Origin: Synechococcus sp. LTW-R
GTDB lineage: Bacteria > Cyanobacteriota > Cyanobacteriia > PCC-6307 > Cyanobiaceae
NCBI RefSeq assembly: GCF_014217875.1
Contig: NZ_CP059060.1
Span: 806,001-870,000, forward strand
Length of the DNA: 64,000 nt
Direction of reading: 5' to 3'
A model generated the notes under the pieces. The model was not told the origin of the DNA and made no database searches. It saw only the letters and a list, made by a program, of their open reading frames with translations. Below, one piece after another: positions 12,763-30,351 of this stretch. Numbering within the stretch: position 1 is the first letter of the stretch; every line of letters starts with the position of its first letter. A program made the position numbers and the translations under genes.

Positions 12763-13575
12763 ATGGAGAGCAGCCTGTCCTTCCGGGCACGTCTGGTGCA
12801 TGCCGAGGCCGGCAAGCGTGTGGTCCAGCTCAGTGCCTGGCGGGGATCCAGTTGCCTCGGGAGCGCGCTTGGCGAAGCGGAGAACGCCGAGCTCGCTGAG
12901 GACAGGGCCCTCGAAAAACTGCAAACCCGGCTCGGCCATCAACCCTCAGCCGAGGCGGCCGCACCGAGTCCGCAGGAGGTTGAAGCGCCACCGGTGCGCC
13001 ACCCCGTGGTGCGCCGTTCTCCGGCCGACGAGCCGGTTGCTCCAGCCGCGGAGGCAAGACCGACGCCGGATGCGCCTCCGGCAGCACCCGCAGAAACCGT
13101 TCAGCCAAGTCTCTCGACGCCACCGGCGGTGGAGCCGCAGGAACCCGTGGCAGACCCCGAGGACTGGAGTGATGAGCTCGCCGAGATCGAGGTGCAGCTC
13201 AAACGCCTGGGCTGGGACCGGACCCAAGAGGGGACTTACCTGCAGCGGGCTTTTGGCCACCCCAGCCGCAACCGGATCACCAGCTACGCCGACCTGGCGT
13301 CCTACGTCCGCAGCCTGAGGGTTCTCGAACCGGGCAACGACCCAGCGTCCGCGGCCATTCCTCTGCGGCGCCGTGATCTGCTCGAGCAGAGCGACAGCCT
13401 TCTGGCAGCCCTGCAATGGGATGCCAACCGCGGCCGCCAAGCCCTCGAGCAGCAGTTCAAACTCAGCAGCCGTCAGCAACTCAGTGACGAGCAGCTCTTG
13501 GCGTTCAACATGCAGCTCGAGACCACCCTCATCGGCTCCGGCAATGCCGCGCCAGCAGCTCCCATCCCAGGTTGA
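12763..13575 (+). CDS. Hypothetical protein with Pro/Ala-rich linker
   Basis: The 270-aa protein has an N-terminal domain of about 60 residues (FRARLVHAEAGKRVVQL ... ALGEAENAELAEDRALEKL), a long Pro/Ala/Glu linker (about residues 62-125) and a C-terminal helical domain (EIEVQLKRLGWDRTQEG, then YADLASYVRSL). No catalytic motif or membrane segment is seen. I do not recognise a named family; a repeat of it would be expected in related Synechococcus. Its last 47 nt overlap the convergent HExxH gene. Confidence 0.75.
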   Translation: MESSLSFRARLVHAEAGKRVVQLSAWRGSSCLGSALGEAENAELAEDRALEKLQTRLGHQPSAEAAAPSPQEVEAPPVRHPVVRRSPADEPVAPAAEARPTPDAPPAAPAETVQPSLSTPPAVEPQEPVADPEDWSDELAEIEVQLKRLGWDRTQEGTYLQRAFGHPSRNRITSYADLASYVRSLRVLEPGNDPASAAIPLRRRDLLEQSDSLLAALQWDANRGRQALEQQFKLSSRQQLSDEQLLAFNMQLETTLIGSGNAAPAAPIPG

Positions 13576-14271
13576 GCTGCTCCTGGTTGGCGTAGGCCTC
13601 CTCCTCCAGCAGTCGCTGTTCCCGGGAGACCTTCGCGTAGAGGGGCTGCTGAAGACTGCGGCGGCCTGAGGCGCTCAAGCTGCGGCTGAGGCCCAGCAGC
13701 CGCGGGCGGGCGTAGAGCGAGCCCCCCTTGCAGCTCTGGGCGACGTGAATCGCCTCATGGTTCAAGACCCGCGCGAAGTTCACCGTTCCTTTGGAGGCCA
13801 CGTCCGGACGAAGCCGCAGCTCACCCCGACGCGGGTTCCACTCACCGGCCGCCCCCCTTTGTTTGGGCTGACGCACCACGATCACCACGCCGCTGCGCTC
13901 GAGCTGCTGCAGCAACACCCCAATCGCATCCCGCTCACTCCGGTAGCTGGGGGGTTGGCGATCAGCTGACGCAATTGCGCTATGGACAGGGGCTTCTCGC
14001 CAGCCCGGCGCCGATAGGTGATGCGCTGCCCGCCACCCGGTAGACGCTCCAATCGGGGGCGCCAAAGTCTATCGGCCTGATCCAGCCGCTGAAACAAGGC
14101 CCGCTCAGTGGAGGTCGTCAGCTGCCAGTTGAGCGGCAGGGTCAGCTCCGCCGCCGTTTCCCCGCCACTGGCCTCCTCTTGGGGGGCATCACCATCGCGC
14201 TGCAGCCAACTCAGACCCGCACCGGCGAGGAGCAGCACCGCCAGGGAGAGCCAGAGGGGACGTCCTCGCAT
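13529..14271 (-). pseudogene. Frameshifted gene for a membrane-anchored HExxH putative zinc metallopeptidase
   Basis: Two minus-strand frames each hold half of one protein. The first (14271 to about 13950) encodes an N-terminal membrane anchor ([16 protein letters not shown]) and ends in ... QLIANPP. The second continues as SYRSERDAIGVLLQQL and contains HEAIH at 13745-13759, an HExxH zinc motif, then many Arg and Leu. They meet at a run of six G on the plus strand (13949-13954); seven would join them into about 247 aa. This is either a true inactivating mutation or a base lost in sequencing. Its start lies 65 nt from the divergent mfd start. The peptidase role is inferred from HExxH only. Confidence 0.75.
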
Positions 14272-21931: not shown

Positions 21932-22012
21932 CGAAAGGGGGCCTGGCATGCGGCAGGATGCACAACATCACCGGTAAGCCGCAAGGCACTACCCCCTGAC
22001 GTCGCTGCTCGA

Positions 22013-27585: not shown

Positions 27586-28338
27586 ATGGCCGTCCAAGAC
27601 CAACAGCAGTGGCTCTTGAGCCGTTATCTCAAGGACCCCAACCCCGAACATCGCAACGCCGTCGCCGCCGCCAACCTGCCCCTGGTCTGGAAGGTGGCCC
27701 GCCGTGAAAGCGAACGCAGTGGGCACAGTTTTGAGGACCTGGTGCAAGAGGGCGTCAGCGGCCTGATCAAGGCGATCGAACGCTTCGATCCCAGCCTGGG
27801 TAACACCTTGAGCACGGCCGCCGTGCCCTGGATTCGCGGAGCGATGCGCCACTACCTGCGGGATCGCTGCCGCGTCATCGGTGGAGCCCGAAGTGTGATC
27901 GAACTGCTCCAACGGGGAGCGACCCTGCAACGTCGCCGCGAGCTGCAGGGGCTCGAGATCTTGGATGACAGGGCTATGGCCGAGGCCCTGGGCTGCTCGC
28001 TGCAGCGCTGGCAAGAGGCTCAGGCCCTGCAGGCCTGTTTACGGATCGCGAGCCTGGATCAACCCGGAGCGGGCCCGGAGCCAGACCTGCCGCTGGTGGA
28101 GCAGCTGAGCGACCAGCAGGCGCCCGCTCCCTACGGCTGGCTGGAGCGCTGTGAGCTGCGCCGCCGACTCTGGAGAGGGCTGAAGACCTTGAGTGCCCGC
28201 CAACGCAGGCTGGTGCTGGCCCGGGTGCTGCAGCAACGCAGCTGGCAGGAGCTCGGGGCCAGGGCCGGACTGAGTGCCCGAGCCGCCCAACGGCATTACC
28301 AGCAGGCCTGCGCCCAAGTCCGCCAGCAGCTGGCGTAA
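27586..28338 (+). CDS. RNA polymerase sigma factor, group 3 (SigF-like)
   Basis: The 250-aa protein has sigma region 2 in FEDLVQEGVSGLIKAIERFDP and TAAVPWIRGAMRHYLRDR (split for length: FEDLVQEGVSG, AIERFDP, VPWIRGAMRHYLRDR), which resembles the cyanobacterial group 3 SigF. Region 4 is a helix-turn-helix near the end (LSARQRRLVLARVL ... GLSARAAQRHYQQA). The middle linker is Arg/Gln-rich. An alternative sigma factor next to a transport operon suggests stress or starvation regulation, but its target promoters cannot be read here. ATG 27586 is clear. Confidence 0.85.
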   Translation: MAVQDQQQWLLSRYLKDPNPEHRNAVAAANLPLVWKVARRESERSGHSFEDLVQEGVSGLIKAIERFDPSLGNTLSTAAVPWIRGAMRHYLRDRCRVIGGARSVIELLQRGATLQRRRELQGLEILDDRAMAEALGCSLQRWQEAQALQACLRIASLDQPGAGPEPDLPLVEQLSDQQAPAPYGWLERCELRRRLWRGLKTLSARQRRLVLARVLQQRSWQELGARAGLSARAAQRHYQQACAQVRQQLA

Positions 28339-28398
28339 AGCGCAGACGTTGGCGGTACAGACGGTATGGGCGGATGAACCGATTCGCTGATCGCCGCC

Positions 28399-29357
28399 TC
28401 AGTCCAGCTCCTCGATGTGCAGCGCATGGCTGGCCATGAACGCCAGAGCTTCCGCTCTGTCGAAGACGCTGCCCGTCGCTGAGGTGCTGCGCACGCAGCT
28501 GGCCCCCATCGCACTGCCCCAGCGAAGACAGCCCCGGAGATCCTGGCCATTGAGATGGCCGGCGATGAACCCAGCATCAAACGCGTCGCCGGCACCGGTC
28601 CCCCCCCCCTGAATGTCGTGGGGTAGGCGTCACTGCGTAGACGCAAACCGTGCTGCATGACATGCACGCCTTGTTCGCCGCCCGTGATCACGACGGTGCT
28701 GACTCCTGCATCAAGGAACGTCCGTGCCTGATCCCAAGGGTCCGTGGATCCGGTCAGCAGAGCCGCTTCATCCGTGTTGGGGAGAACGACATCGGTGTAG
28801 GGCAAAAACCGAGTCACCCTCTCCATGGCCGCCGGATCGTTCACCTCAATCACATCCAGCACAACCAGGGCGCCATTGGCGCGTGCCCGGCGCAATCGGT
28901 GCAGGGTCTCCTCGGTTTCCAACGCATCCAGCATCAGAAAACCACCGATGTAGATGACCCGGGAGGATTCGATCAGTTCTGCCGGCACCATGGCCTGGCT
29001 GAACAAGCGGTTGGCACCAACGGCTGCGATAAAGCATCGGTCATCACCGTCCACGTTGATCACCGCTGTTGTGGCTGTTGCTGCATCAGCGGTGCAGTGG
29101 ATGCCGTTTGTGTTGACGCCAGCGTGATCCAGGGTGTGGATCAGATAGCGGCCGAAAACATCGTCCCCAAGACAACCTCCGACGCCAACCGTGATGCCGA
29201 GGTGGGCGAGGTCGTAGGCCGCATTCGACGCACATCCCCCGAGACTGAGATCCATCCTCCTGGTCTCCACCAACTGACCGGGTTTCGGCAGCGTCTCGAT
29301 CGGATCGCAGACCAAATCCGCACACAGCAGACCAAGGCAGAGGCAATCAAGCGTCAT
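28399..29357 (-). pseudogene. PfkB-family carbohydrate kinase, frameshifted at a poly-C10/G10 tract
   Basis: The N-terminal 236 residues read LGLLCADLVCDPIE, GGCASNAAYDLAHLG (PfkB motif 1) and VVITGGEQGVHV. Then ten G on the coding strand (28600-28609) shift the frame. In the other frame the protein resumes TGAGDAFDAGFIAGH, the PfkB motif 2 with the catalytic Asp, and ends EELD* at 28399. Adding one G (or removing two) restores about 319 aa, the usual length, and stops before the sigma factor gene instead of overlapping it. Sequencing error, a null allele or phase variation are all possible. The sugar or nucleoside substrate is unknown. GC looks lower than in neighbours. Confidence 0.8.
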
Positions 29358-29459
29358 GGGCTGGTTTCAAGGCGCGGGAAGTGGTCGATGCCCGGCGGGG
29401 GAGCTGCCGTTGATCGCGAGGCTGGCCACTCGCGAGCTGGCCAATGCCTTGAAGCGCGC

Positions 29460-30224
29460 TTAGGCCAGTGCCAGGCGCACGGCCAAGCCCATGGCCAGCA
29501 GGGCGGCGATCAGGGTCTGGAGCGCATTGACCAGTTCATTGCTCAGCCAGGGGAGACGGTCCTGGACCGTCGCGCCAATCAGGCTCTCGATCAAGGTCGC
29601 CGCCAGACCCACCAGGGTCACCAGCAACCAGGTGGCGCCGCCCTGGATCAGACCCAACTGCAGCATCAGCATCGCCATCAGGGCACTGCCACCAGCACTC
29701 GCCAGCGTCCCCTCCAGGCTGATCGCCCCTTCGGTGCCAGGGGGGACCGGTTGGAAGCGCGTGATGGAGACCGTGCGGCGGCCCCAGCGCTTGCCGATCT
29801 CACTGCCGCAGGTGTCGCCCAACTTGGCGGCGAAGCTGGCCGCAAAGCCGATCTTCAACAGGATCACCGGCGTCATCGGCCAGACACTGAGGACCGCGAG
29901 GGCCGCGCCCGTGGCCGCCGATCCCCAAACGTTCTCAGGACCGCGCCGGCCGCCGCGTCCCTCCGCGAGGCCCTGCTCCTGCTTGCGCCGGTAGCCCAAT
30001 CGGGTCACCAAAGACCCCAAGGCCAAGTAGAAGGCGACCGCCAGCCAACCCGGCCAATCCAAGCTGCCGAGCAGGAGGGTGCCCAAGATCCCGGCATGGA
30101 CCCAACCGGAGCGGGTGAGCAGCGGCAGGCGCTGGGCCGCGGCGATCAGCACCCCGTTGATCAACAGGGCCGCCAGCCAATGCTGCAACCGCTCGGGGCC
30201 CAGCAAGATCTGCAGATCGAGCAT
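29460..30224 (-). CDS. DUF92 integral membrane protein, VTE6-like phytyl-phosphate kinase
   Basis: The 254-aa protein has about six hydrophobic helices with the conserved loops GDTCGSEIGKRWGRRTVSITRF and GTEGAISLEGTLAS (given as GDTCGSEIGKRWG and GTEGAISLEGT), typical of TIGR00297/DUF92. Plant VTE6 phosphorylates phytyl phosphate, recycling chlorophyll phytol into tocopherol and phylloquinone. Homologues in cyanobacteria are expected to do the same, which fits a chlorophyll-bearing organism. ATG 30224 was chosen; GTG 30257 would add eleven residues. The start lies 128 nt from the divergent 132-aa gene. Confidence 0.85.
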   Translation of the reverse strand: MLDLQILLGPERLQHWLAALLINGVLIAAAQRLPLLTRSGWVHAGILGTLLLGSLDWPGWLAVAFYLALGSLVTRLGYRRKQEQGLAEGRGGRRGPENVWGSAATGAALAVLSVWPMTPVILLKIGFAASFAAKLGDTCGSEIGKRWGRRTVSITRFQPVPPGTEGAISLEGTLASAGGSALMAMLMLQLGLIQGGATWLLVTLVGLAATLIESLIGATVQDRLPWLSNELVNALQTLIAALLAMGLAVRLALA

Positions 30225-30351
30225 CCCTGGGATCAGCCACTCCCTCCAGAAGAACACAACTGCTGGAACTTCTGTTGCACTGCCCTACGGGCGCTGTTCA
30301 GATGCACCGCCTACAGCGGATAATCCTTCAAACGGTCACTTAACCGGCGCC

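Follow-up and report, generated by a model that had tools for sequence, protein, structure and literature searches.

Poly-G and poly-C tracts within open reading frames form contingency loci in Campylobacter and Neisseria, where the length of a tract sets the reading frame of the gene. Homopolymers are also sites of frameshift pseudogenes, in which a single short indel falls in the run. Indels in repeats of 3–8 bases, including G and C, were bypassed in a laboratory drift experiment, with functional protein as the product (PMC3812077). The locus described here could be compared with each of these cases. It encodes a PfkB-family sugar kinase (PF00294) and lies in the window, i.e., the whole 64-kb stretch of DNA analysed, which corresponds to bases 806001–870000 of the single-contig genome of Synechococcus sp. 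LTW-R (2,415,533 bp). The coding strand of the kinase gene carries a run of ten G (C10 on the forward strand), which is the sole G/C run of at least eight bases in the window. The features of the locus are listed in Table 1.

Table 1. Features of the kinase locus and its neighbours (positions in the window).
Feature	Position	Strand	Remarks
Insert of ~1.1 kb	28334–29460		carries only pfkB; lies between the convergent ends of the sigma-factor and DUF92 genes
Sigma-70-family factor gene	27586–28338	+	overlapped over 43 nt by the broken kinase ORF
PfkB-family sugar kinase ORF as assembled	28296–29357	−	353 aa; native reading up to about residue 251, frame lost past the run
Kinase remainder (other frame)	28399–28599	−	TGA stop at 28399–28401
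TGAGDAFDAGF (PfkB motif 2)	28567–28599	−	contains the catalytic Asp; not in the frame of the gene start
C10 run	28600–28609	−	C10 on the + strand, G10 on the coding strand of pfkB; site of the frameshift
DUF92 membrane protein gene	29460–30257	−	other neighbour of the insert

The kinase ORF starts at position 29357 and has its native reading through Phe-Arg-Gly-Gly at the run, after which the frame is lost. The run is located between PfkB motif 1 and the catalytic motif TGAGDAFDAGF, the frame of which begins immediately past it. The stop of the broken ORF, at 28296, falls within the adjacent sigma-factor gene. The frame is restored at other tract lengths: G8 gives a predicted kinase of 318 aa and G11 a kinase of 319 aa with one extra Gly, neither of which overlaps the sigma-factor gene. 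As assembled, the product matches the PF00294 profile over residues 4–236 only (profile positions 3–237 of 302, Pfam), and a match to the whole domain with an in-frame GAGD is lacking. The disruption of the frame is confirmed as real in the assembly. The original prediction, which was made from the letters alone, placed a C10 between the two motifs, held that one more G or two fewer would restore TGAGDAFDAGF, and expected both in-frame lengths to abolish the overlap with the sigma-factor gene; it was right on all of these points, and the position of the run was exact.

Homologues of the kinase gene were sought by DNA search in 25 genomes of the genus, LTW-R included. Besides LTW-R, the gene was found only in the MAG Synechococcus sp. 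HW_metabat.21 (G018), which belongs to the same genus and a different species, and it is missing from the 23 other genomes. The G018 copy has G8 at the equivalent site and an open frame of 318 aa. It encodes an intact kinase, which matches PF00294 almost end to end (profile positions 3–298, 3.2e-50). The best NCBIfam match is a 5-dehydro-2-deoxygluconokinase domain, with a score far below the cutoff (141.5 vs 300 bits). Three more distant homologues, one from another genus of the same family (G332, 58% identity) and two from Planctomycetaceae MAGs (46 and 44% identity), lack a G-run but show the spacing of G8. Since homologues lacking the run match this spacing, G8 was likely the original tract length in the lineage, relative to which G11 means one additional glycine. 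The run itself is present only in the near-identical G018 copy and is not kept in the other homologues. Variation of run length among homologues, suggested earlier as a check, is thus found as G8 in G018 against G10 in the window.

The site lacking the insert is clean in two other genomes of the genus (G020 and G023), where the sigma-factor and DUF92 genes converge and their aligned parts are separated by about 12 bases. The insert of the window is 99% identical to that of G018 (~0.9% difference), whereas the flanking genes are ~92% identical (~8% difference), and the level of divergence shifts within ~50 bases of the insert ends. This step in divergence means that the insert moved recently or was recently replaced in one of the two lineages. 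A classical mobile element with terminal repeats was considered and rejected, as no terminal repeats of at least eight bases were found within the 100–120 bases searched at each insert end. A phage-borne kinase was rejected as well: no relatives of the kinase were found in IMG/VR viral contigs, and phage records give only distant matches (25–29%). The pfkB gene is a recently moved, dispensable gene of lateral origin.

The kinase coding sequences of the window and G018 differ by four nonsynonymous and three synonymous substitutions; 20 nonsynonymous and 31 synonymous differences are found in the adjacent sigma-factor gene. One of the kinase substitutions places Cys instead of Arg at position 108 of the window copy, within the conserved GEDRRF stretch. 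The 3' part of the gene past the run differs from that of G018 by one synonymous substitution. These small numbers give no sign of strong constraint on the kinase, and the differences are too few to demonstrate relaxed selection.

A recent loss-of-function slip in a dispensable acquired gene is the first-ranked explanation of the broken frame, with a likelihood slightly short of even. On this reading, the PfkB-type kinase was acquired laterally and is not essential, and the G8 tract arose in its cyanobacterial copy, where Arg-Gly-Gly written as AGG GGG GGG provides the eight G. In LTW-R the tract would then have grown by two, from G8 to G10, via ordinary replication slippage. This would shift both the C-terminus and the catalytic TGAGD motif out of frame, and the kinase product is presumably inactive, judging by the motifs that it loses. 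Such a slip, occurring at a mutable site, could in principle be reversed, and no sign of its retention as a switch is seen. G10 is in this case probably the true length. An intact orthologue in G018 and a recognisable coding sequence downstream of the break are both present, as for a frameshift pseudogene. The recent slip is placed first since a real G10 needs nothing but slippage and the hybrid assembly makes the G10 consensus more credible. Ordinary decay or a sequence error is at least as likely as switching, because two further genes are frameshifted in the same assembly; an ordinary slip or a length error explains the break of the frame as well as switching does, and one of these two is the most likely cause.

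A technical error of length is possible and ranks second. The consensus would be wrong by one or two bases, with the true run being either G11 (intact, with the extra Gly) or G8. The assembly of strain LTW-R was produced with Unicycler from PacBio and Illumina data, and its G+C content is reported as 62.6% (PMC7771541); ~63% was obtained here in scattered loci and 65.5% in 172 kb of contiguous samples, which are somewhat richer than reported. The competence gene comEC is also frameshifted in this assembly, at a C9 run (genome positions 1217040–1217048), where seven or ten C would be in frame. In the three closest relatives its frame is open (~659 aa) and there is no run at that site. The comEC frameshift may mean that natural competence has been lost or that the run was miscounted. 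The C10 of pfkB and the C9 of comEC, the two long runs with frameshifts, would each be in frame with one more base, which is the pattern of an undercall. A third gene (window positions 13532–14271, ~250 aa), for the fragment of which no Pfam match was found, has lost one base near 13945 beside a C6 run and is intact in G018, G020 and G023. After inspection, these three were left as the mid-gene frameshifts of three sampled regions (172 kb in total, on which the frameshift density rests). Several apparent frameshifts in a three-way comparison, such as those at genome positions 1211778–1211850 and at window positions 21937 and 24542, were dismissed as artefacts of antisense or intergenic ORFs.

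Local assembly errors do exist, because a junk-like stretch is present elsewhere in the genome. This low-complexity sequence of ~3.3 kb near 2386600–2389900 consists of 84% purine with many G and A runs and interrupts a giant repetitive gene, the repeats of which also shift frame. The consensus here looks unpolished or spurious. A one-base undercall of G11 in pfkB, matching comEC, is a possible technical route; however, it requires an expansion of the true run from G8 by exactly three bases. A two-base overcall of G8 is unlikely because the other coding G8/C8 runs that could be judged appear to be in frame, with no clear exception in the inspected translations, and the G9 run of hflX is in frame too. 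This survey was approximate, being based on codon statistics and inspection without homologues. The combination of PacBio and Illumina data also lowers the likelihood of an error in G10 (PMC7771541). An assembly with frameshifted genes calls for checks at the level of reads.

Phase variation, proposed by the original prediction, is ranked third and is improbable. As a contingency locus, pfkB would be toggled between ON (G8, G11) and OFF (G9, G10) by slipped-strand changes in the length of its G tract. Such a mechanism is possible, because the tract is long enough to slip within the coding sequence and copies in both states are present, ON (G8) in the relative and OFF (G10) here, in 99% identical sequence. 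These copies, however, belong to two different species and not to one switching population, and the other homologues are devoid of the tract. The frame analysis of the prediction and the difference in tract length between lineages are upheld, but reversible switching is hypothetical. The gene, which lies on the recently moved insert, is predicted to encode a cytoplasmic sugar kinase and is neither a surface nor a restriction gene. No example of homopolymer phase variation in cyanobacteria was found in the titles and abstracts searched, which is weak evidence either way.

Rarity of the run had been taken as an argument for a switch, as ten-base G/C runs were supposed to be rare by chance. This did not withstand comparison with dinucleotide shuffles of the window, which contain 1.03 C10/G10 runs on average, and at least one such run in 51 of 100 shuffles; run rarity was dropped as evidence since the shuffles yield C10 equally often. 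What is not due to chance is the conserved kinase sequence that flanks the run in two frames. In this genome, long G/C runs are depleted and not enriched: five runs of at least eight bases were observed in the 172 kb sampled, where 23 are expected under a first-order model. Outside the junk-like stretch, the genome contains two runs of at least ten bases, the pfkB C10 and a G11 at 944561–944571, the latter in apparently non-coding sequence. Runs of this length are absent from the close complete genomes G020 and G023 and occur several times in other genomes of the genus.

A broader version of the switch, in which the tract of pfkB, possibly along with the C9 of comEC, would control sugar phosphorylation and competence by run-length slippage, is more doubtful still. 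Should the tract toggle, homopolymer phase variation would occur in a free-living picocyanobacterium; the literature searched gave no instance for this group. Toggling would also be relevant to how heterogeneous populations are in their use of sugar.

The last-ranked explanation is that the polymerase or ribosome slips on the run, so that some full-length kinase is made and the gene stays partly on; it has a precedent in the bypass of repeat indels in the drift experiment (PMC3812077) and is very improbable. A programmed frameshift or slippage site was rejected as the principal reading, since homologues do not conserve the tract.

Among the known systems, poly-G/C contingency loci share with pfkB a G tract of at least eight bases within the ORF, the length of which sets the frame. 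The pfkB tract differs from them in that it is not conserved, belongs to a single metabolic gene and is found in a genome poor in such tracts. As to the PfkB/ribokinase-family sugar kinases (PF00294), the intact relative in G018 is a member almost over its entire length, whereas the window copy has lost the frame of motif 2 and the C-terminus. Pseudogenes frameshifted at homopolymers resemble pfkB in the single short indel in the run and the almost unchanged sequence downstream; the break in pfkB differs in being very recent and in that it could revert by slippage. Read as a recent slip, the pfkB case shows how slippage can lead to the loss of a mobile one-gene insert.
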